Positions 8,631-19,713 of a DNA stretch of 64,000 nucleotides are shown here, one piece after another; position 1 is the first letter of the stretch; each line of letters opens with the position of its first letter. Below the pieces are notes generated by a model. It had not been told where the DNA came from. It did not search any database and saw only the letters and a list, made by a program, of their open reading frames with translations. The translations under genes and the position numbers were made by a program. Source of the stretch: Chloroflexota bacterium (GTDB lineage Bacteria > Chloroflexota > Anaerolineae > Anaerolineales > Anaerolineaceae). The stretch covers positions 1 to 64,000 of the forward strand of contig JAKQJC010000065.1 of the NCBI GenBank assembly GCA_029561345.1, written 5' to 3'.

Positions 8631-8670
8631 CACCGCGCCTGGCAAAACCAGCCAGGCGCGGTGCTTTTAT
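8631..8670. terminator. Strong terminator between host gene and phage block
   Basis: 13-bp perfect stem CACCGCGCCTGGC (8631-8643) / GCCAGGCGCGGTG (8651-8663) followed by CTTTTAT on the plus strand. It ends the gene stopping at 8602. The last phage-block gene (stop at 8667, minus strand) runs right up to the same hairpin, so it may also end leftward transcription, although the minus-strand side lacks a T-run. Confidence 0.9.
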
Positions 8671-9080
8671 GCTTCCCAGACGGTCCATGGTGGGACCGCC
8701 GCACTGTGCAGGCGGGCAAGACGCTGCGTTTCACTTGATGGCAGGGCGCGCGCCAGCAAAGCCCGGAAGGCGCTCAGCTGCGCGGCGGACCAATCTTCCC
8801 CGGCCGGCGGTTGCTCCAGGCCGGAAAGCCGGGTGCTGCGGCCCGCGGCAGCAAAACCAGCCGCGCCCACCAGCAGCAGGCTGGCATGGTGAGCCGGTAG
8901 GGTGGTGAGAGATGCTCCATCCAGCCCGGCAAGGGCGGCCGGCTGCGGCGCGCTCAGGTTGTATTCGCCGAGGGCCAGGCGCAGGGCAGCTTCCAGCTCA
9001 TCCATGCTCCAGGTCAGGTGGGCTTCATCCTGCAGCAGCAGGCCGAGCTGGGTCTGAAATCCATTGAGGGTCAATTCCAT
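8667..9080 (-). CDS. Phage-block protein, 137 residues, unknown (possible head-completion/adaptor)
   Basis: The last gene of the phage-like block. The N-terminal third (LNGFQTQLGLLL, then LEAALRLALGEYN) looks like helical head-tail connector proteins that begin by counting positions along a segment. The remainder is Ala/Leu-rich and helical with no recognised motif. It starts with GAAGGTG-type sequence upstream and follows the 323-residue gene by 84 bp. Adaptor function is a guess from size and position; I do not recognise the family with certainty. Confidence 0.6.
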   Translation of the reverse strand: MELTLNGFQTQLGLLLQDEAHLTWSMDELEAALRLALGEYNLSAPQPAALAGLDGASLTTLPAHHASLLLVGAAGFAAAGRSTRLSGLEQPPAGEDWSAAQLSAFRALLARALPSSETQRLARLHSAAVPPWTVWEA

Positions 9081-9164
9081 ATCAACACCTTCCTTCAGAC
9101 CGGCGCAGAAATGCCGCCGGTCTCTTTTCGTCTTTTGTTTCAGGCAGAAGGTGCGCCTGGCCGG

Positions 9165-10136
9165 TCATGCTTTCCATTCCCAGTGCTCCACCCAGGCCTG
9201 GGCCTGCCAGGGCAGCCCCAGCGGCTTCAGCCATTGGCCGTGCGGCGGCAGAAGGGTGGGCTGGCCCTGGGCGTCATAAATTTGCCCGGCGGCATCCACC
9301 GCCCAATCGGCCTCGCCAGCCAGCGGCGCGGCAAACAGGCGCGCCTGGCGCCCCGGCAGCACCCCGGCCAGCAGCCGCCGCCCGGCCGCGTCGCCGGAAC
9401 ACAGCAGGCGCTCCGCCTCCACCTGGGCGCTGACCTCGCCGCTGCGGCCCGGCTGGGACCACACCCCGCTGGCATGCTCAACCCACGTCTCCGTGAAAAA
9501 AGCGCCGCAGGCGGCGAGAATATCCTGCGCCTGGGCGCTGGTCTCGCGGGCCGGTCCTTCCGCGCAGGCATAGAGCCGCCAGTCGAGGGTGCGCCACCAG
9601 CCGCAGCATTCCAACTCGGCGCAGACGTCTGATGCGCTTCCCAGCAGCGCCAGGCGCGGCGCCGCTGAAAGTTCGCGCAGGGCAGCGGTGCGGCGGGCTT
9701 CAGCCTGGGCCGGGGTGGCGGTTTCAAGGCTGATCAGCTTCTCCTTGCGGCCGTATTCTGCCTCCTGCAGGGCCTGGACTGCCCAATCGGTCTGTTTGCG
9801 CAGCCCGCCGTGCAGACCGGCCGCCGGCGGGGTGTGATAAAGCACCGCTACGCGGCTGGCCGAGGTTTCGAGGCTGGCGCCGAGGGACAGGCGGCCCTCT
9901 TTAACGGTGACAGCCGAGAGATAACCCCACCAGAGCGGGCTCAGGGCGCTGTCGCTGATGGTCACGCCGCAGCGCAGCCAGCCCAGCAGGTCCTGAAGAT
10001 CGGCGGGGCGGCCCCAGGCGCGCAGCCAGGCCCGCGCCGGGCCGCCCAGGGCAGACCAGCGCAGTTTTTCAACGCGCACCTCAACAGGCGGCGCGGCGAT
10101 GGGGGTGAGCTGGCGGGAATGCCAGGTGATGTGCAT
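9165..10136 (-). CDS. Phage-block structural protein of unknown role
   Basis: 323 residues from an ATG with AAGGAGG 7 nt upstream; longer readings into the previous gene have no such signal. The N-terminus has short strands and a WWGYLSAVTV motif of the kind seen in tail-associated or adsorption proteins, where a local value is set against a reference segment (ALGGPARAWLRAWGRPADL). The C-terminal end is Trp-rich (QAWVEHWEW). There are no catalytic residues or transmembrane segments. The 20-bp gap to the upstream 403-residue gene indicates one transcript. A virion role is inferred from position only. Confidence 0.65.
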   Translation of the reverse strand: MHITWHSRQLTPIAAPPVEVRVEKLRWSALGGPARAWLRAWGRPADLQDLLGWLRCGVTISDSALSPLWWGYLSAVTVKEGRLSLGASLETSASRVAVLYHTPPAAGLHGGLRKQTDWAVQALQEAEYGRKEKLISLETATPAQAEARRTAALRELSAAPRLALLGSASDVCAELECCGWWRTLDWRLYACAEGPARETSAQAQDILAACGAFFTETWVEHASGVWSQPGRSGEVSAQVEAERLLCSGDAAGRRLLAGVLPGRQARLFAAPLAGEADWAVDAAGQIYDAQGQPTLLPPHGQWLKPLGLPWQAQAWVEHWEWKA

Positions 10137-10156
10137 AAAAACCTCCTTGCGCGGGC

Positions 10157-11368
10157 TCAGGGCATGCGCACGCGCGGTGCAGCCCACAGGCGCACCCGCA
10201 GGTGCATGCCTGTCTGCGGCGATCCCGCGGCGTCGTCGAAAAAGAAGGCCATCTGCTGCGCCGATGCCGGCGGCAGAGAAAGCGGCCCGCCCAGGGCGCG
10301 GTAGCCGCCGTAGAGACCCCCGCCGGGGGCGCTTTTCCACAACCCGCCGCCAATGCCGTCATCCACCAGGGTCCAGCCGTTGCCAACGGCGCCCTGCACC
10401 GCCAGCGGCTCGTAAATGCGCAGAGATGCAGCCGGCAGCAGCAGCAGGCCGTCCACATCCGCCTGGCTGCCCGCGCCCTGCTGGCCCAGCAAAACCAGGC
10501 TGCCCGGCCGGAAGGGCGGCAAAACCAGCCGCCCCAGGTCCAGCCAGGCCAGCGCAGACGGTGCAGACGGCCCGCCCTGCCAGGCCAGGGCATCGTAACT
10601 GCCGTCTGATTCGCGGCGCTGCAGGCGCAGGCTGCGCGCGCCCATCAGCGGCAGGCCGAAGCCGGTGCCCAGCAGCAGGGCGCGAAACACCCCCTGCAGG
10701 CTGCCGTCCAGCGCCCAGGTCAGCAGGGGTTCTTCGCCTGCTGGCAGGTTCACCCGCCGGTAAGCCCCGCCGCTGGCCCGCAGATCGCTGAGCAGGGTGC
10801 CGCCAGAAGCCGTTTCAGCTTCCAGCAGCACCGCCGGGCTGCTCCCTGTGCTCACCCACACCCGCCCGGCATCCTGCAGCGGGTCTGTGTTCGGGTTGCT
10901 CATTTCAAGGCGCAGCGCAGGCGGCAGCTCTCCGCCGGCCGTTCCAGCGCTGAGGCTCATGCCTGAGGTCACTTCCACCCCGCCTGAAACCCCCGCCAGC
11001 GGAAGCTCGGCCGCTGGCCCCAGCCAGGCATCGGCGCGCTGCAAGCGCAGGCGCAGCCCCAGCAGGCCGCGCGCCCGCGCTCCGGGCGGGCTGGTTTGCT
11101 CCAGGCAGCCGCCTGCCAGTTTTGAGCGCCATTCCGGCTCGCCTTCCGCCGCCTGCAGGCGCAGCTCTGTGTCCTCGGCAGCCAGCAAGGCTTCCAAAAG
11201 GGCCTGCTGCGCGGCCAGGGAGGCCGGGCTCTGCCCTTCAAAGGTCAGCTCAAGCAGGTCTTCAACCCATCCCTCCGCTTCGCTGGTGCGCGGCCGGTAG
11301 CTGAGGGTGCGGCAGGCTTCCATCAGGCACACTTCGCCGGCGCTTCCGGCCAGGGCCAGGCGGCGCAT
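10157..11368 (-). CDS. Phage-block beta-rich structural protein
   Basis: 403 residues. The start at 11368 is one base past the holin-like gene stop (TGAGATG), which suggests translational re-initiation. The N-terminal 40 residues include a Cys-containing strand (AGEVCLMEACRTLSY). The rest is rich in Gly/Ser/Leu strands and carries a sugar- or receptor-binding style ending (GMHLRVRLWAAPRV). Pseudo-repeats of DGLLLLPAASLRI/LDLGRLVLPPF type suggest a beta-sandwich or propeller particle component. I do not recognise the family. Fibre, spike or minor capsid protein are possible. Confidence 0.6.
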   Translation of the reverse strand: MRRLALAGSAGEVCLMEACRTLSYRPRTSEAEGWVEDLLELTFEGQSPASLAAQQALLEALLAAEDTELRLQAAEGEPEWRSKLAGGCLEQTSPPGARARGLLGLRLRLQRADAWLGPAAELPLAGVSGGVEVTSGMSLSAGTAGGELPPALRLEMSNPNTDPLQDAGRVWVSTGSSPAVLLEAETASGGTLLSDLRASGGAYRRVNLPAGEEPLLTWALDGSLQGVFRALLLGTGFGLPLMGARSLRLQRRESDGSYDALAWQGGPSAPSALAWLDLGRLVLPPFRPGSLVLLGQQGAGSQADVDGLLLLPAASLRIYEPLAVQGAVGNGWTLVDDGIGGGLWKSAPGGGLYGGYRALGGPLSLPPASAQQMAFFFDDAAGSPQTGMHLRVRLWAAPRVRMP

Positions 11369-11369
11369 C

Positions 11370-11561
11370 TCAGGCCCGTCCGGCCGGACGCTGCTCCACC
11401 GCCACGCCCAGAATGTAAGCCGCCAGCAGGGCTGCCAGCGGGGTGAGCTGGCCCTCATCCAGCGGGAAGTTTGGATCGGCGGCGCGGGCGAGGATGACCA
11501 GCAGCCCCAGCAGGGCCGCCCAGAATTTGCGTGAAACCAGAAGTTCCTTCAATTTGTCCAT
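11370..11561 (-). CDS. Holin-like small membrane protein
   Basis: 63 residues with two membrane helices (FWAALLGLLVILARA and TPLAALLAAYILGVAVE), separated by a short acidic turn (PNFPLDEGQ), and charged termini. The SRKFWAALLGL...LAAYILGVAVE pattern matches small proteins annotated near lysis or structural genes in many phages. If it acts as a holin it would permeabilise the membrane for particle release, but no endolysin is encoded in the block. It lies between the capsid and the 403-residue gene and has its own AAGGAGAAA ribosome site. Confidence 0.7.
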   Translation of the reverse strand: MDKLKELLVSRKFWAALLGLLVILARAADPNFPLDEGQLTPLAALLAAYILGVAVEQRPAGRA

Positions 11562-11585
11562 GCGTTTCTCCTTTCAACCCTTTCT

Positions 11586-11618
11586 CTTCGCTCCCCGGAA
11601 ATGCCCCAGGGAGCGAAG
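11586..11618 (-). other. Hairpin between capsid and holin-like genes
   Basis: 10-bp perfect stem CTTCGCTCCC (11586-11595) / GGGAGCGAAG (11609-11618) with a 13-nt loop. No T-run follows on the minus strand, so it is not a standard terminator. It may be a processing or stabilising structure that separates high capsid from low holin expression. Confidence 0.6.
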
Positions 11619-11637
11619 TCTGTGACCAGCCGGGCAG

Positions 11638-13485
11638 TCAGGCCACGTTGTTTTTGTGCAGCGGGCGCCAGTCGTTCACCCACACGGCCATGAAATGGCG
11701 CACCTTCAGACGGTGCTCGTCGTTGCTGAACACAGCCGGAGAGAGTTCATCGCCGGCAATGTAGATCTCAGGCAGCAGGCCAAAGCGCTCGCCAATGAAC
11801 ACGGCCGGCGCCACCTGCGGATCGCAGACGGCCGCCCAGTTGTTGGCGTCGGTCCATTCCGGCACCACCACCGGCACGCCGCTGCCTTTGAGCAGGTTGT
11901 CGTAGAATTTATCGGATTCGACCGCCCAATCGCCCAGCAAAATCTGGCGGGCGGCGCGCTGCAAAGGCCGCGGCACCAGCAGCACGCGCGGGTTGACGGC
12001 CAGGCGCGGGCCGCTGCCGTAATGCCCGGCGGCGTTCTTCACCAGCATCGGCTGCTGGTACACCGCGGCGCAGACCGCGTCCCATTCGGCGGCGTCGAGG
12101 GCGGCGCTGCGCAAATTGGCGTGTCCGCTGATCGTGGTGACGGCGGCCGTATTGAAGAGGGTCCCGCCGTCGGCCATGGTGGGACCCAGACCGCCGTTCT
12201 GGCTGAAGATGGCCGCCACCAGCCCCGAAATTTTGCGCAGGCCCGCTGAGGCCAGTTCGCGGGCATACTGGCGCAGGCGGCGCGTTTCATCGCGGTCAAT
12301 CAGTTCAAGGGTGAGGGGGATATAGCCGCCGTATTTCTTGAACGCGGCGGTTTCAGGGCTGTCGCCCACCGCCAGCTCGGTGTAAGCGGCGCCTTCAGCC
12401 ACCTCAGGCAGGTCGCCCACCGTGCCCACCAGGGTGCCGGTGATTTCGTTGAGCGAGCCGAAATGCTCCACCGTGGTCACTGCGCGCCACCAGTCGTAAC
12501 CGGCGCGGCCCAGTTCATCCCAGGTGTTGGCCACCAGCTTGTTGAGGGCGTTTTTCACCAGCCCGCTGAAATCGGCGGTGGTGGCCAGGCGCGCCCGTTC
12601 GGGATGGTAGCCGCCGTGGAAATGCTCATCGCCGGTGAGGGTCAGGTAGAGCTCGCGAATGCCCGAAAGGCGCTGTGTTTTCAACCCCGCCAGAGCCGGG
12701 TCACGCGGCGCGCCGAAAAGGTCGTCGGTGGCTGCCTGGAGCTGATCGCGGGTGTCGAACATGCCGCTCAGACGCGGCCCCTGCACCACGCCCTGCCCGG
12801 TGAGCTGCGAAAGCAGGCCGCGGGCCTCTGCCAGGCTGCGGGTCAGTTCGGCGGGTTCAAAGCTGCGCCCGGCAAAACGGGCGCGCACCTGCCCGGCCAG
12901 GGGTTCCGGCAGACGTTCAGCTGCCAGGGCTGTCTCCAGCATCCAGCCGCACAGGTCAGGCGCGGGTGCTGCCGCGGAAGTAGGTTCTGTATCACTCATT
13001 GGTTCTTCTCCTTCATTTGTTATTTGTTCCGGCCCAGAGAGGAAGCGCCCGCCCCGGGCCGGTTGAAACACCAGGTCCACGCTGAACACCTGGCAAATCT
13101 GGCGCACCTCGCGCCCTTCCGCATGGAAGAGCAGGTCTGCCGAAAAGCCCACCGCCGCCGAACCCTGGGCCAGGGTCTGCCGGCCCAATTCGGTCAGCAG
13201 TCCTGCGCCTGGCCCCGCCGGCCGCAGGCGCAGGCAAATGCCCTGGCGGGCTGCATCCCAGGCGGGGGCATGGCAGAGCCCGGCCAGGTCGCGCACCGAG
13301 CGCTGTTCCCGGGCATGGTCAATGAAACAGGCCGTGCCGTCCCACAGGCGCAGCGATTCCTGCAGAACCGCTGCGCCAAAATGCCAGCCGTTGCCCTCCC
13401 CGGCGCTGATGGCCAGGATGAGAAAATCGCCGCTGCCGGGCGTTAACGCCCCCGACCCCAAACGCACGCGCTGGTGTTCAGTCAT
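11638..13485 (-). CDS. Prohead protease fused to major capsid protein
   Basis: 615 residues in one frame. Residues 1-150 match the phage prohead (HK97-type/S78-like) maturation protease: NGWHFGAAVL, catalytic His57 in CFIDHARE, Ser115 in AAVGFSADL, then VFSVDLV and PARGGRFL. Residues from 163 on match Mu-gpT-like major capsid proteins (FDTRDQLQAATDD, GGYIPLTLELIDRD, GHYGSGPRLAVNP, VWVNDWRPL). An internal ATG (12999-12997) with a perfect GAAGGAG 8 nt upstream could give free 453-residue capsid protein, so two products are expected. The start at 13485 overlaps the portal stop by 8 bp and has GAGGAAC upstream. Confidence 0.85.
   Translation of the reverse strand: MTEHQRVRLGSGALTPGSGDFLILAISAGEGNGWHFGAAVLQESLRLWDGTACFIDHAREQRSVRDLAGLCHAPAWDAARQGICLRLRPAGPGAGLLTELGRQTLAQGSAAVGFSADLLFHAEGREVRQICQVFSVDLVFQPARGGRFLSGPEQITNEGEEPMSDTEPTSAAAPAPDLCGWMLETALAAERLPEPLAGQVRARFAGRSFEPAELTRSLAEARGLLSQLTGQGVVQGPRLSGMFDTRDQLQAATDDLFGAPRDPALAGLKTQRLSGIRELYLTLTGDEHFHGGYHPERARLATTADFSGLVKNALNKLVANTWDELGRAGYDWWRAVTTVEHFGSLNEITGTLVGTVGDLPEVAEGAAYTELAVGDSPETAAFKKYGGYIPLTLELIDRDETRRLRQYARELASAGLRKISGLVAAIFSQNGGLGPTMADGGTLFNTAAVTTISGHANLRSAALDAAEWDAVCAAVYQQPMLVKNAAGHYGSGPRLAVNPRVLLVPRPLQRAARQILLGDWAVESDKFYDNLLKGSGVPVVVPEWTDANNWAAVCDPQVAPAVFIGERFGLLPEIYIAGDELSPAVFSNDEHRLKVRHFMAVWVNDWRPLHKNNVA
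12997..13014 (-). promoter_or_regulatory. Internal ribosome-binding site and start inside the protease-capsid gene
   Basis: GAAGGAGA (minus strand, 13014-13007) stands 7 nt before an in-frame ATG at 12999-12997, at codon 163 of the fusion, right where capsid homology begins (MSDTEPTSAAAP). It is as good as any start in the block and would yield capsid subunits in excess of protease. Confidence 0.7.
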
Positions 13486-14722
13486 GGGGCAGTTCCTCTC
13501 CGGCCAGGCTGTACACCAGGCGCAGCAGTTCGCCATCCGCCAGCAGACCGCGCTCATGCAGGTTCAGGAACACCGGGGCCGCCGCCGCCAGGGCGCCGGC
13601 CTGGGCCTGGCGGTCGCGCAGCGAAATCTCCTCGCCGCGCAGGCGCAGGGGTGCCGCTGCCTGTACTCGCCCATCCACCAGGGCGCGGCGGCGCAGCACC
13701 GCCCGCAGCAAATCTTCCACCAGCCACAAAAACTGGCGCTGGCGCTGTTCAAAAGCGCGGTAGGCGGGGCCGTTGGCGGCTTCGGCGGTGGTGCGCGTGG
13801 CATCTTCCGGTTCGGCGAGAAAATGCATCGGCACCCCGGCCCCCGCCGCGACCATCTTTTTCAGGGCTTCGCCATCCAGCGCCGCCTCCGCCGATTCGAG
13901 CTGGGGATTGATCACCTGCCAGCTTTCGCTCTCATCGGTGACCAGGATGGCCCCGGGCGAGGGCGGGACGGCGGCCAGGGCTGCCTGGCGCGCGGCGCGT
14001 TCCTCTTCAGAGGCATAGCGCGAGGTGACCACATACATGAAGGTGTTGCGGTAGCGGTTGAGGCGCACCCGGTCTTCCAGCCAGGCGGTGTAGCGCGCCA
14101 GCCAGCGCAGCAGCGGCCCCAGGTCCGATTCGCCCCACTGCGCCCCGGCCGGGCGGTTAACGGCATAATGCAGCACGCAGGGGGTGAAGCCGCCGCCGGG
14201 CAGGCGGGCATCGCGCAGGGGATCATAGGCCGGCCATTCCCCCTCGCGGCCAGTGAAACGCAGGGCCTGTTCCACATCATTGCCGCGTGCTTCGATCTGC
14301 TCGATTTCAGCCGCCGGGATGGCGCGCACGTAGCTCATGCCGCTGGCGTCGGTGCTGAGCAGCACAAAGAGATTGCCCGCGCGCGAAAGCTCGTCGCACC
14401 ACTCGTAGAGGCGCTGCTCCATGCGGTTGAGCGGATGCTCCCAAAATTCGCTCAAAAAAGCGGCAGTTTCAGGGTGATCGCAGGCGAGGGTCAGGCCGCT
14501 GCCCAGCACATGCTGGGTGGTCAGGGCAATGATGCGCCGCGCCAGCGGGTTGCTGCGCCAGGCATCCAGCGCCTGGGCCAGCAGTTCGGCGCGGTCAAAG
14601 GTCAGGCGGTCGCGGCGCTCGGCGGCAGCTTCGTAGAAGCCGTCGTTGATATTGGCGGCAGCCAGGGCTGCCCGCCGCGGGGGTTTGCTGCGCCCCAGCC
14701 ATCGTTCCAGCCAGGTGATCAT
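13478..14722 (-). CDS. Phage portal protein
   Basis: 414 residues. The segment DAWRSNPLARRIIALTTQHVLGSG near the N-terminus, the conserved central GNLFVLLSTDASGMSYVRAIP, a middle region RLNRYRNTFMYVV and the helix-rich C-terminus with GVPMHFLAEPEDATRTT are hallmarks of HK97/Mu-type portals. The portal forms the DNA channel at one capsid vertex and docks the terminase. The start is set by AAGGAGG 8 nt upstream; longer in-frame readings lack this. It overlaps the protease gene by 8 bp, as expected for a coupled head operon. Confidence 0.87.
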   Translation of the reverse strand: MITWLERWLGRSKPPRRAALAAANINDGFYEAAAERRDRLTFDRAELLAQALDAWRSNPLARRIIALTTQHVLGSGLTLACDHPETAAFLSEFWEHPLNRMEQRLYEWCDELSRAGNLFVLLSTDASGMSYVRAIPAAEIEQIEARGNDVEQALRFTGREGEWPAYDPLRDARLPGGGFTPCVLHYAVNRPAGAQWGESDLGPLLRWLARYTAWLEDRVRLNRYRNTFMYVVTSRYASEEERAARQAALAAVPPSPGAILVTDESESWQVINPQLESAEAALDGEALKKMVAAGAGVPMHFLAEPEDATRTTAEAANGPAYRAFEQRQRQFLWLVEDLLRAVLRRRALVDGRVQAAAPLRLRGEEISLRDRQAQAGALAAAAPVFLNLHERGLLADGELLRLVYSLAGEELPHD

Positions 14723-14815
14723 TTTTATTTCCTCCTTATGAAATGGTTCCATCATGGGTGCAGCTTCGGCGGTGCCGCATGGCAGTGCTGTCGAAGTGCT
14801 CCACATTCTTTCCCC

Positions 14816-16498
14816 TCATCTCAACCGCACCAGCCCCAGTTCAGCGGCGGTGAGATTAATATCCGCCGGGTTGGTGTGGCAGGCCAGCAGTTCCAGGAAA
14901 TCGCCGGCCTTCAGCAGGCGCAGCGCTGTGAGCGAAAGGCTCACCGCCGCCGGCGCGGCGGCTGGGCGCAGGTCCTGCGCGCTCAGCGTGCTCCCATTGA
15001 GGCGCAGCGCCAGCCCGCACGCCCCGCCCGTGCCGGGGTCAAAACAGCCCTGCGCGTTGATCAGGTAAAGCCCGCTGTGCAGAACCGTCAGGCGGGTGGA
15101 TTGGTGGGCCGCCCATGCGCCGGTGAAATCAAAATTCAGGGCATTGAATGCCACTGCCGCCCAGGTGCCCGCAGGCAGGGTAAGGCTGGCCGTGCGCGCC
15201 GCCTGAGCGGCGGCAAAAGGCGGGCAGGCCGGTTCAGCCAGCAAAGATCCGCTCCAGGCCGCCAGGCAGGCCGCCTCGTCCTCTTCCAGCGCCCGCCCCA
15301 GAACAAACAGATCATCCAGCAGGCCGTTGGGCTGGCCCGTTCCGCTGCTGCTGCAGCCAATGCTGAAGGCCGCTTCCAAGCCTTCGGGCGGCGTTCCGGC
15401 CGGACCGCTGGCGCACAGCGCGCCGCCGCGGTAAAGGCGCAGCTCGCCCGCCTGGCAGGTCATCAGCAGGCGTTCCTCGCTGGCGGCCCCCAGGGCGGCT
15501 CCGCTGAGCGCCTGGCTGCCCCACTGGCCCCACAGCCGCCCCTGCGCATCCACCCCCAGGCGGATCTGCCCGCTGGCGGCGGCCGCATGGAACAGGTCGC
15601 AGGGCGGAGTGTGCCCCAGCAGGCGCAGACCAATGGAACCGCCCGCCGCTTCCAGCACCCCTGCGCTCTCGCCGCGCAGCACGGCGGCCGCGCGGCTGGA
15701 AGCCGAGGCATGCGCGGCTCCCTGCCAGGCGTGGCCCACCCCCAGCGAACCGTCGCAATAGGGGCTGGCATAAGGCAGCAGTTCCAGCTGCACTGCGTCC
15801 ACCTCCAGGTCATAGCAGCCCGCCCCGCCCAGGCGGAACGAGAGGCGGTAGGCGTCGGCGGCGGGGATCACCCCGCTGCAGGAAAAGCGCCGCCAATCTG
15901 CTCCCGGGCGGCAGGCTGTGCTCAAAGAACGGGTGGAGGCGTCGTTGACCAGGTATACCCGCACCTCAGGCGGGTTGGCGCTGGCGCAGCGCAGGTAAAA
16001 CGAAAAGGTCACCGCCTGCCCGGCCGCCAGAGAAAAAGCACTGGCGCTGTCGAGGCGGATGTGCCAGTTATAGCTGCCGGGCCGGGTGATGCTGATGCGC
16101 GCCGCCCTGCGGCCATAAACTCCGCCGCTGATCATCTGGCGCGAGGCCTGCGCCGGGCTGACCTGAACCAGGTTCCAGCCGTCGGTCACGTTCTGTTCAA
16201 ACGAGGGGTTGGGAATGAGGTTGGCGCCAGCCTGGGCCATCTGCACAGCCTTGCCAGTTCCTTCCGGCCTGAAGATCACCCCGCCCGCGGCGCTCAGCAG
16301 TTGCCCGCCGGCTTCGTCGCGCAGGCTGCCGCTGAAATCCGTCTCAAAGGGGCGCGGCCCGTCAAATGGGCACAGCAGACGGGCCTCCTGCGCCAGGCGG
16401 CTGCCCAAAACCAGCCCCTTCACCCCTCCGCCAAACAGCCCATCCACCCAGCCCAGCACATAAGGGCGCAAACTGCCCTGATCGTCTTCCCATGTCAT
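14816..16498 (-). CDS. Modular fibre-like protein (CBM4/LamG/C1q-like)
   Basis: 560 residues. An N-terminal region is followed by a carbohydrate-binding-like module starting LIPNPSFEQNVTDGWN (about residues 90-230). Next is a concanavalin/LamG-like module (GVLEAAGGSIGLRLLGH to LLDDLFVLGRALEEDE, about 250-400). Last is a C-terminal TNF/C1q-like domain (LNFDFTGAW, HSGLYLINAQG, LELLACHTNPADINL). Such modules occur in receptor-binding fibres and decoration proteins. The start at 16498 has AAGGAGGTG upstream and sits 2 bp after the terminase stop. Placement between large terminase and portal is unusual. Confidence 0.7.
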   Translation of the reverse strand: MTWEDDQGSLRPYVLGWVDGLFGGGVKGLVLGSRLAQEARLLCPFDGPRPFETDFSGSLRDEAGGQLLSAAGGVIFRPEGTGKAVQMAQAGANLIPNPSFEQNVTDGWNLVQVSPAQASRQMISGGVYGRRAARISITRPGSYNWHIRLDSASAFSLAAGQAVTFSFYLRCASANPPEVRVYLVNDASTRSLSTACRPGADWRRFSCSGVIPAADAYRLSFRLGGAGCYDLEVDAVQLELLPYASPYCDGSLGVGHAWQGAAHASASSRAAAVLRGESAGVLEAAGGSIGLRLLGHTPPCDLFHAAAASGQIRLGVDAQGRLWGQWGSQALSGAALGAASEERLLMTCQAGELRLYRGGALCASGPAGTPPEGLEAAFSIGCSSSGTGQPNGLLDDLFVLGRALEEDEAACLAAWSGSLLAEPACPPFAAAQAARTASLTLPAGTWAAVAFNALNFDFTGAWAAHQSTRLTVLHSGLYLINAQGCFDPGTGGACGLALRLNGSTLSAQDLRPAAAPAAVSLSLTALRLLKAGDFLELLACHTNPADINLTAAELGLVRLR

Positions 16499-16500
16499 TT

Positions 16501-17979
16501 TCACACCTCCTTGCTCATGCCCGCCAGCGGATCTGCCGCGGGCGCAGCGCCGGCCCCGCCCGGGGCCGGTCCCCAGGGCTGCTTTTCCAGCACGGCGCAC
16601 AGCGCCGCCGAAAGCAGCAGATCGTCATGCAGCGGTTCCCCGCTGGCCGGGTCGCGGCTGCCATCGGGCACGCCCCAGCGCAGCAGGCGCCCGGGCCCAT
16701 CGGCCACGTTCATCTGGCAGAAGGTCATCTGCTGCCTGAAGAGGGCCTGTTCGGGGCTGCCGTCATCGCGCCAGTCCTTGAAGCGCCCGGTTTCAACCAG
16801 GCTTAGGAAGGCCCAGCCCAGGTCCGATTTGCTCTGCGCGCTGAACACAAAGGGCAGCACCCGCTCGCCGAAGGCGTGCTGTAAGAACGAAGCCAGTCCG
16901 GCGCCAATGCCCGTGGCATCCACCACCACAAAGCGCGGCTGCCACAGGCCCACCTGCGTCTTCACCGCCTCAAACAACGCGGTCTGTGCCAGCCCGGTCC
17001 ACAAACGCCGTTCCACCACGCGGTAAACCGGGCCGCGCAGGGCGGCAAAGCGCGAAAGATCCACCTCCACCACCGTCAGTGCCGAAGCATCGTGATCCTG
17101 GCCGCCCTCGCCGCCCACATCCAGCAGCAGGGCGGTGCGGCTGCCCGGGCGCGGCGCGCGCAGGCGCGGGTGATCTCCCATCATCAGGCCCTGGCGCGCC
17201 GCCGGAAACAGGCCGCTTTCGGCGTCAATTTCTTCGCTGAAAAACTGGCTGCGTACCATCGGGTGCATGCGCCCCAGGCGGGCCACCTGCCCGGCGACAA
17301 AATCGCCGTAAGCCGGCACCTCGCGGGCCACATCGTCCGCCGTCAGCCAGAACACCCGCTGCACCCCGTCGCGGGCTTCAGCCTCGCGGGCAGCGCGCAG
17401 CTCGCGCGCCAGCAGGGTTTGCGCCGTCCAGGCGGTGCCCCAAAAGACGCGGGTGGCATTGGTGCTGGCGGCCATGGGGGCAATGTCTTTATCATATTTG
17501 GCCGCCAGCACGTCCTGGGCCTCATCCACTTCCAGCAAGGTTGAGGCAGTTGCTCCAACGATGTGCGCATGGGGTTCGCCGCTCAAAAAGAGCATCCGCG
17601 CCCGCCCAATCCGGTAGATATAGCCGTTCTCCTTTTCCCAGCCGTCCCGGCAAAGCAGGTTGCGCTCCAAAACACGTTCCAGCCGGCGCATGGCGTTCTG
17701 AGCCTGCGGTTTCCAGGTCGGAGAGATCTTGACGATCTCCGCGTCCCGTTCAGAGAGCAGGCGCAGCAGATACGCCTCGATTTGGGCCTGCAGTTCGTTT
17801 TTACCCGATTGGCGCGGAAAAACCACCACAAAAGTGAGGCCGCGCCGGTGCAGCGCCGAATCGACAATGGCTCGCGCCGCGGCGGTCTGGTAGCGCCGCA
17901 GCCGCACGCCCGAGGCGCCGGCTGCAAAATGCGTCACATCGCGCAGCATCATCCTGATCAGGCTCTGTTCATCGCTCAT
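16501..17979 (-). CDS. Phage terminase large subunit
   Basis: 492 residues. The ATPase half has Walker A PRQSGKN (55-61) and Walker B LLEVDEAQD (148-156). The RNase-H-like nuclease half has acidic strands LLLDVGGEGGQDHD (D287), VVVDATG (D354) and LHDDLLL (D452/D453). All catalytic acids are present, so it should both pump and cut DNA. It starts in a 4-bp ATGA overlap with the coiled-coil gene. Its presence with portal and capsid shows a complete packaging set. Confidence 0.93.
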   Translation of the reverse strand: MSDEQSLIRMMLRDVTHFAAGASGVRLRRYQTAAARAIVDSALHRRGLTFVVVFPRQSGKNELQAQIEAYLLRLLSERDAEIVKISPTWKPQAQNAMRRLERVLERNLLCRDGWEKENGYIYRIGRARMLFLSGEPHAHIVGATASTLLEVDEAQDVLAAKYDKDIAPMAASTNATRVFWGTAWTAQTLLARELRAAREAEARDGVQRVFWLTADDVAREVPAYGDFVAGQVARLGRMHPMVRSQFFSEEIDAESGLFPAARQGLMMGDHPRLRAPRPGSRTALLLDVGGEGGQDHDASALTVVEVDLSRFAALRGPVYRVVERRLWTGLAQTALFEAVKTQVGLWQPRFVVVDATGIGAGLASFLQHAFGERVLPFVFSAQSKSDLGWAFLSLVETGRFKDWRDDGSPEQALFRQQMTFCQMNVADGPGRLLRWGVPDGSRDPASGEPLHDDLLLSAALCAVLEKQPWGPAPGGAGAAPAADPLAGMSKEV

Positions 17980-18239
17980 TTGAACAAAGCCAGGAGAGAA
18001 AGCAAACCCGCGCCGCCGTTGGCCAGCCCCGACACCACCTTGAACTGAGTGATGCCTTCGGTGGCGCTGCGCAGGCGGGTTTCATGGTCGGCGCTCTGGC
18101 CTTCAAGGGCCGCCAGGCGCTGACCGGTCATTTCATAGTGGTGAGCCAGGCGCGCCTCCATGGCGTCCAGCTCGGCGCGCATCAGGTCCAGGGCATGTTT
18201 CATCTGTTCGGCAATCAGGGCTGCCTGGTTATCATCCAT
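17976..18239 (-). CDS. Small coiled-coil protein with hydrophobic C-terminus
   Basis: 87 residues. Residues 5-65 form a heptad-rich helix (MKHALDLMRAELDAMEARL, RLAALEGQSADHETRLR), and the last 20 are hydrophobic (GLANGGAGLLSLLALF). The shape resembles XhlA-like lysis accessory proteins or phage tethers, but between small and large terminase it might instead bridge terminase subunits. It shares an ATGA overlap with the large terminase. Function unknown. Confidence 0.6.
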   Translation of the reverse strand: MDDNQAALIAEQMKHALDLMRAELDAMEARLAHHYEMTGQRLAALEGQSADHETRLRSATEGITQFKVVSGLANGGAGLLSLLALFK

Positions 18240-18255
18240 CGTTCACTCCTTGCCT

Positions 18256-18609
18256 TCAATCGCCCAGCTCACGCAGCACGTCGGCCAGGGCGGCGCTGAG
18301 GGCATCGCCCAGGCTGCTGGACGATTCCGCCAGTTTTTGCTGAATGCGCGCCAGGTTTCCCAGGCGGGCGGCCGCCGCGCTCAGGCGGTCCAGCACCTTC
18401 GACCAGGTATCCAGGTCGGCGTCCTGCTCTGAAGCCAGCTCAAACACGCGCCGCATGGTCACCCGCAGCAGGGCAATTTCATCCTGCAGGCCGCTGCCGG
18501 CCCCCAGCAGGTCGCTGGCCTCGCCCGCGCGGAACTTGCGGCCGTAAAAGCCGCTGCGCGGGGGCTGGCGCTGGCGCGCCGGAGGGGGCGGGGTGGATTC
18601 GCTGGTCAT
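18256..18609 (-). CDS. Putative terminase small subunit
   Basis: 117 residues. A Pro/Arg-rich N-terminus (TPPPPARQRQPPRSGFYGRKF) is followed by a helical core (DEIALLRVTMRRVFELA, LDTWSKVLDRLSAAAARLGNLARI). Position directly before the large terminase and the gene-start promoter fit the DNA-recognition subunit. A longer in-frame reading begins at 18765 but would cross the promoter at 18657-18634, so the ATG at 18609 is chosen. No ribosome site is visible; the 5' leader is predicted to be only about 18 nt. Confidence 0.55.
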   Translation of the reverse strand: MTSESTPPPPARQRQPPRSGFYGRKFRAGEASDLLGAGSGLQDEIALLRVTMRRVFELASEQDADLDTWSKVLDRLSAAAARLGNLARIQQKLAESSSSLGDALSAALADVLRELGD

Positions 18610-18795: not shown

Positions 18796-19713
18796 ATGAA
18801 AACTCCCGCCATGCATAAAATCAGCATTGATACGGATCATTATTATGTGCTCAATCCCATTCCCCCCTATGTGGATATCATCCTGCACAATGTCTCCATC
18901 AATGAAAAGGAATTCACCAAAATGGCTGCCCTGAGCAGCAGCTATCAGAATGATCCGCGTCTGGTGGAAATGGTGCGCAAAGCTGGTGACGCCTCGGCCA
19001 AGGTGCCTTATCTGATGGCTGCCGGCGAAACCCCCGCCTCCATTCTGGAAGCCCTGCGCGAGGTGGCCAAACCCCACGTGGACTACCTGTGCGACCTGCC
19101 GGGGCATATGCGTGTCACCATTGAGATGCTGCTGTCCATCAATAAAATTCCCATGGGCTGCGAGGACTGCGGCATTCCGGCTTTGCTGGAAATTGACCGC
19201 ATTCAGGGCGAAATGATCCAGACTCTGCGTGAGATGATGGCCGGGCGCGAATTGCCTGAAACCTTCCGCGCCGCCAACCTGGCCGCCCTCAGCCGCCTGG
19301 ACCAGGACTGGCCGCGCCTGCGCCGCAAGGTGGTGCCGTCGTGGTCCGAACCCCACCCCCTGCCCGAACAGGCCGCCATGCGCTACCAGCCGGTATTTGT
19401 GCGCGGGCGTCTGGCTTACCTGTTTGAAACCTGTGTGATGGTCGATTCACCGTTGGCGCGCGAACTGCTAAAGTTCACCCCGCCAGTGCTGCAGCGCCCC
19501 ATCCCCGAAAATCAGCCGGTGCCGGCCACCGGTTCGGCTGAGTGGCTGATCCGCGACACAGGCAAGATCGGGCGCCATTTCACCCGCGCCCTGCTGAACA
19601 TCATCAAAGACCGGCTGGAAGCGGAAAAAATTTCACTGGATGCCCACAATTACCACCGCATCAACCAGGAGGCGCGCGACGCCCTGCATGATTTTGTCGG
19701 CAAAACTCCCTGA
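18796..19713 (+). CDS. Protein of unknown function, 305 residues
   Basis: Start set by CAGGAGGGCG just upstream; longer frames would include the promoter. A soluble protein without signal or membrane segments. Visible features are a CEDC dicysteine motif (after INKIPMG), many Met residues, a His/Tyr-rich N-terminus (TDHYYVLNPIPPY) and a long amphipathic C-terminal helix (LNIIKDRLEAEKI). I do not recognise the family. It is monocistronic and lies just outside the phage block; whether it belongs to the host or to the element is uncertain. Confidence 0.75.
   Translation: MKTPAMHKISIDTDHYYVLNPIPPYVDIILHNVSINEKEFTKMAALSSSYQNDPRLVEMVRKAGDASAKVPYLMAAGETPASILEALREVAKPHVDYLCDLPGHMRVTIEMLLSINKIPMGCEDCGIPALLEIDRIQGEMIQTLREMMAGRELPETFRAANLAALSRLDQDWPRLRRKVVPSWSEPHPLPEQAAMRYQPVFVRGRLAYLFETCVMVDSPLARELLKFTPPVLQRPIPENQPVPATGSAEWLIRDTGKIGRHFTRALLNIIKDRLEAEKISLDAHNYHRINQEARDALHDFVGKTP

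Follow-up and report, generated by a model that had tools for sequence, protein, structure and literature searches.

Phage-like structural genes that stand among ordinary bacterial genes raise the question of whether they are what is left of a virus or a particle-forming system kept by the host. Such a block occupies positions 8667 to 18609 of the DNA analysed here, a 64,000-nucleotide stretch from a bacterium of the Anaerolineaceae (Chloroflexota), hereafter called the window. The initial annotation offered three readings of the block, namely a gene-transfer agent (GTA), a capsid-forming satellite or a domesticated capsid. Comparative data favour a GTA-like or domesticated-capsid reading, based on prevalence, synteny, dN/dS and the missing integrase, whereas the satellite finds no support for the chromosomal copies, with which no mobility genes were found. 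On balance, the block is probably the morphogenesis-lysis module of a group of small, undescribed temperate tailed phages that became fixed in Anaerolineaceae and is kept by selection as a GTA-like particle factory.

Gene calling with a codon model placed ten close-packed genes that tile 9.9 kb of the minus strand from 18609 down to 8667, in agreement with the compact, one-direction arrangement described before. A 1262-aa antisense ORF across the block was not counted, being regarded as a shadow of GC-rich coding. The features are, in the direction of reading:

18256..18609, minus strand: g1, 117-aa protein resembling a small terminase, which opens the conserved block
17976..18239, minus strand: g2, probable coiled coil, 87 aa, with a hydrophobic C-terminus (nature read from the sequence)
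16501..17979, minus strand: TerL, large terminase, 492 aa (Terminase_6C 8e-6, above cut-off; phrog_5909 2e-6)
14816..16498, minus strand: g4, fibre with a GTA_spike_fiber domain, a LamG domain and a phage-fibre C-terminus
13478..14722, minus strand: portal, lambda-type, 414 aa (phrog_10963 3e-29; 18 copies aligned)
11638..13485, minus strand: fusion of prohead protease and major capsid protein, 615 aa (Phage_capsid_4 2e-29; phrog_29592)
11370..11561, minus strand: g7, holin-like protein, 63 aa (phrog_9987 8e-4)
10157..11368, minus strand: g8, predicted Dit fold with a CBM6/35-like insert at residues ~176-313 (AlphaFold2 model, Foldseek, VIA-align)
9165..10136, minus strand: g9, predicted gp27-type baseplate hub, 323 aa (AlphaFold2 model, VIA-align)
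8667..9080, minus strand: g10, probable head-tail connector, 137 aa (conserved block position)
8631..8663, minus strand: perfect 13-bp inverted repeat directly after the g10 stop (read from the sequence)

A role of the inverted repeat as terminator is unsure because no T run follows it. The block is flanked by ordinary host genes (GGDEF, phosphoesterase, DUF3048, homocysteine methyltransferase/MTHFR, ArsR and P-type ATPase); the right-hand neighbour, at 18796-19713, is a 305-aa gene without Pfam match. Across 62 loci, the GC content of the block exceeds that of its flanks by a mean of 6.7 points and tracks it with r 0.83.

The head and packaging genes carry the clearest family matches, and their key motifs are conserved. 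In TerL, the motif FPRQSGKN, the DE of the Walker-B-like motif and the nuclease Asp residues are all invariant among 18 aligned copies, and so are His57, Ser115 and Asp137 of the protease part among 20. The terminase and protease residues noted earlier as intact are invariant motifs of catalytic appearance, and they would have the corresponding catalytic roles. The protease part itself is a putative assignment from the conserved His/Ser/Asp and the fusion families matched; the fusion also matches NCBIfam NF045541 at 5e-27, yet under the cut-off of that model. The small-terminase role of g1 is suggested by its position near TerL in the block: g1 has no Pfam or PHROG match (searched with a longer 169-aa ORF) and none in NCBIfam, and these three collections revealed no DNA-binding domain, although a divergent one could be missed. 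Its neighbour g2 has no family match above chance in the same collections, and many copies retain it, flanked by g1 and TerL. Between TerL and portal, the window copy has the fibre g4, which matches Laminin_G_3 and, with 36.5 bits against a cut-off of 36, the head-spike-fibre-type model NF048003 (GTA_spike_fiber) known from the GTA of Rhodobacter capsulatus (RcGTA). Many other copies carry a GH25 or M23 endolysin there, an enzyme present at 46 of the 62 loci in which TerL, portal and capsid are all seen; none is recognisable in the window copy. The closest deposited phages are Microcystis phage Mae-JY22 for the capsid and Bacillus phage vB_BboS-125 for TerL, ordinary phages of 41 and 59 kb with only 31% identity.

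The initial annotation had described the block as devoid of tail genes. In the window copy, g8 and g9 gave no useful family matches, and a sequence search of solved structures returned nothing convincing for g8, g9, g10 or the capsid. Predicted structures revise that description. The AlphaFold2 model of g8 (mean pLDDT 85, alignment of 33 relatives) superimposes on the Dit proteins of phage p2 (Z 13.4, rmsd 4.3 over 230) and SPP1 (Z 13.1, rmsd 4.1 over 216), and that of g9 (pLDDT 93, alignment of 30 relatives) on hubs of the gp27/VgrG/Mu gp44 type (Z 14-15, rmsd ~3.3 over ~215). The folds are those of the p2, SPP1, Mu (gp44) and T4 (gp27) baseplates; among the relatives of g9, 10 of 30 members match phrog_877, a family of unknown function. 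The connector role of g10 is probable from its position, and a PHROG match exists for only one of its 38 relatives (phrog_399, structural protein). The claim that a tape-measure gene is missing withstood the analysis: the ten genes fill the block, no tube, terminator or tape measure is recognisable among them with Pfam, PHROGs and NCBIfam, and PF10145 is absent from this genome. In siphophages, the Dit-Tal/hub assembly sits at the end of a tube whose length is measured by the tape-measure protein, whereas no such genes are recognised here.

The block is widespread in the family. The window capsid protein as query found matches in 24 of 61 relatives, and a profile of 20 capsids was positive in 80 of 110 family genomes (50 of the 64 of high quality), including the cultured genera Anaerolinea, Leptolinea, Levilinea, Ornatilinea, Bellilinea and Longilinea. 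Class-wide, 57 of 397 genomes match this profile, many of them in other families and with lower scores. Named loci belong almost entirely to Anaerolineaceae; three (L092, L104, L121), carried by short contigs from MAGs assigned to Syntrophobacterales, Ignavibacteriales and Deltaproteobacteria, probably owe these other-phylum labels to misbinning. In family carriers, the capsid gene is nearly always single-copy and open. Two copies each were seen in three genomes of the genus labelled g8 (G007, G134, G138), one of the G138 copies with an internal TAG.

The 80 named genome loci are, for the most part, near-identical in gene order. An HMM scan gives the main order as g1, g2, TerL, optional endolysin, portal, capsid, optional F17, holin, optional F28 or F22, g10 and a tail-tip module; the window copy is a variant in which g10 comes last. 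A gene set whose order recurs in this way in dozens of genomes is far from chance. The tail-tip module consists of either g8-g9 (38 of the 80 genome loci) or F8-F9 (25), with neither found at 17, partly owing to contig ends, and profile comparison revealed no relation between the two modules. TadE/G-like pilus genes lie directly upstream of g1 at 10 of the 80 loci (L070, L073, L076, L091, L097, L100, L101, L117, L122 and L141, the last by nearest gene only). Since both modules occur within this set, the tail-tip module was probably exchanged at one locus. Two further arrangements were seen: in G013 (L038/L039), TerL, g2 and g1 lie on the opposite strand, ~11 kb from the capsid gene, with all genes open, and in G049, from another family of the order (L060/L061), a compact block with a 35% identical capsid has the order capsid, g1, TerL, portal and host genes on both sides.

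The initial annotation had proposed a search for the block at the same locus in related Anaerolineae, and closely related carriers do share its surroundings with one another. At a capsid identity of at least 80%, a flanking gene is common to 38 of 41 comparable sides, and sharing declines to 106/186 at 70-80%, 126/424 at 60-70% and 100/2713 below 60%; the pairs are non-independent and these counts descriptive. Ten hand-chosen genomes that lack the capsid gene were re-examined, and parts of the block turned up in six of them: contig ends truncate it in G031, G073 and G081, whereas G016, G068 and G116 have internal deletions; TerL was not found in the remaining G024, G030, G065 and G070. As read from the sequences, G068 retains the right-hand neighbours of G010, a GH1-like and a DegV-like gene. 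Prevalence, the synteny gradient and deletion remnants are thus signs of vertical inheritance among close relatives only. At depth, agreement between block and host trees is weak: the Mantel correlation is r 0.32 (p 0.035) for the family alone and r 0.26 (p 0.115) once the outgroup is included, so that transfer or recombination occurred or the signal was lost; this comparison was judged too weak as proof of vertical descent, and flank synteny was used instead. For the window copy, vertical descent would rest on its relatives, because no clear ortholog of the gene to its right exists among the 110 family genomes, the one match, in G112, being weak (E 1e-4).

The internally deleted copies and the weak deep congruence are also what repeated insertions of a small temperate phage could leave behind, if these had lost their integrase and replication genes and were decaying as defective prophages of no benefit to the host. 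The common locus in close relatives speaks against such an origin, and so does selection. NG86 dN/dS was computed for 14 hand-picked species pairs, the majority drawn from those whose capsids are most alike; in several of them dS approaches saturation, and saturated pairs were excluded from the medians. Medians across 11 block gene families range from 0.08 to 0.16 (TerL 0.086, portal 0.099, capsid 0.083, holin 0.084, endolysin 0.113, g1 0.13, g8 0.124, g9 0.145, g10 0.157, F8 0.105 and F9 0.106), which shows every gene tested, including the three for which this measurement had been suggested, to be under purifying selection in the relatives from which the values come, the window copy having no relative close enough for dN/dS. 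Excluding copies cut by contig ends, full-length ORFs were found for 56 of 57 TerL, 71 of 72 portal and all 76 capsid genes. The earlier view that the block is no plain decayed remnant agrees with these values.

Mobility functions were sought around the block. As had been stated before, neither integrase nor replication genes were found with it, and the prospect that an integrase lies nearby but outside the window did not materialise on the 81.7-kb contig that carries it. Among 14 carriers, the nearest above-cut-off match to the integrase family PF00589 is separated from the block by 90 kb or more, or lies on a different contig; G075 has one below-cut-off match 54 kb from the block. The tape-measure family PF10145 occurs in 4 of 29 carriers, and in G062 and G089 its copies lie at most 8 kb from an integrase and far from the block, so that these genomes hold ordinary prophages unlike the block; PF10145 is a single family, and a divergent tape-measure or tube gene elsewhere is possible. 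Sampled phage accessory proteins are missing around all 80 chromosomal loci, a further point against defective prophages.

Mobile relatives nevertheless exist, and they argue in favour of defective prophages. IMG/VR holds 144 relatives, of which 80 were fetched. An integrase is present in 4 of the 25 records searched, and integrase and replication genes, which set an ordinary temperate prophage apart from the block, occur in L160, L161, L184 and L223; records also contain replication-type, ParA, D12 methylase, primase-like and family-B polymerase genes. One record of 19.5 kb (L309, G508) has inexactly similar ends, compared by eye, and a block that spans both of them, and may therefore be a near-complete circularly permuted genome. 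No terminal repeats were found on records with a full block; a 6549-base record (L212) that holds only portal to g10 has a 46-base direct terminal repeat. In six records that were read, scans of selected proteins recognised no tube or tape-measure gene. A further relative, L314 (G510), encodes a Dit (phrog_33) together with a hub of the Gp37 type; in it, a family-B DNA polymerase adjoins the structural genes. A capsid tree (FastTree) contains one purely viral clade of 25 rows, whereas L161, L171 and L223 are interspersed with chromosomal copies, which allows several domestications or re-acquisition. Weighed together, the evidence makes decaying insertions an unlikely account of the chromosomal copies.

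The incomplete tail, next to head and packaging genes of its own, also brings to mind a satellite dependent on helper phages for tube and tape measure. Capsid-forming phage-inducible chromosomal islands encode their own capsid, portal and terminase together with an integrase and regulatory genes, and rely on the tails of helpers. The block resembles them in encoding these three components itself while its tail is incomplete; it differs in that integrase, regulatory and replication genes were not found with the chromosomal copies, that Dit and hub are encoded, and that genomes usually carry a single copy, at a locus common to close relatives. A satellite is accordingly a very improbable explanation.

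As a GTA-like particle factory, the block would work as follows. The protease-capsid fusion would form an HK97-type head on the portal, TerL and a small terminase without detected DNA-binding domain would move DNA into it, and g10 would close the neck. The Dit ring of g8 and the gp27-type hub of g9 could then dock directly, or almost so, on the neck as a stub tail, the lectin domains of fibre and Dit could bind sugars of recipient cells, and the holin, with an endolysin in most copies, would release the particles. Assembly of such particles, packaging of host rather than own DNA and delivery to recipients are predictions from gene content, and the window copy presumably behaves like its relatives. 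The conserved lysis genes and sugar-binding domains would equally suit a domesticated capsid with another job, such as a lysis-coupled killer, a sugar-targeted particle or a DNA store without gene transfer, and this fits with the lack of a recognisable tube for DNA passage. Conservation of the TerL motifs and the portal, however, equals that of the capsid; this argues for selection on DNA packaging and leaves such a function rather improbable, more so than decaying prophages. The block may be a tamed virus that moves host DNA between cells.

GTAs are known from few lineages. None from Chloroflexi, Chloroflexota or Anaerolineae is named in the titles and abstract openings covered by a partial review of the open-access literature. 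With a conserved candidate in cultured genera, the GTA question becomes directly testable. More specifically, the block could represent a family-wide Chloroflexota GTA whose tail tip sits on the neck without tube or tape measure, and which derives from undescribed temperate phages of ~20 kb that likewise lack both; this fuller proposal is tentative and rather doubtful as a whole. If true, this arrangement, with Dit and hub but neither tube nor tape measure recognisable, would mean that tail tips can function near the head. RcGTA has a stopper, a terminator, five tube rings and a tape measure (PMC7296036), none of which is recognisable in the block. Furthermore, protease and capsid are fused here, the phylum is different, and packaging and transfer by the block are predicted. 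RcGTA also carries a low-carbon amino-acid signature relative to viral homologues (PMC7360931); a simple test, uncorrected for phylogeny, found no such signature against the viral clade, with no difference for TerL and a slightly opposite one for portal and capsid. GTA particles contain mostly non-self (random host) DNA, 4-14 kb each (PMC11841831), and the terminase features of GTAs (PMC11841831; PMC7947584) include a small terminase without detectable DNA-binding domain (PMC11841831), with which g1 tentatively agrees, the comparison covering the window copy. The block shares with RcGTA a chromosomal, phage-derived head-tail cluster, a hub, a Dit with a sugar-binding insertion domain, the head-spike-fibre-type domain and a small terminase lacking a detected DNA-binding domain. 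Finally, it agrees with GTAs in having no integration or replication genes with the cluster and, in its relatives, structural genes under purifying selection.
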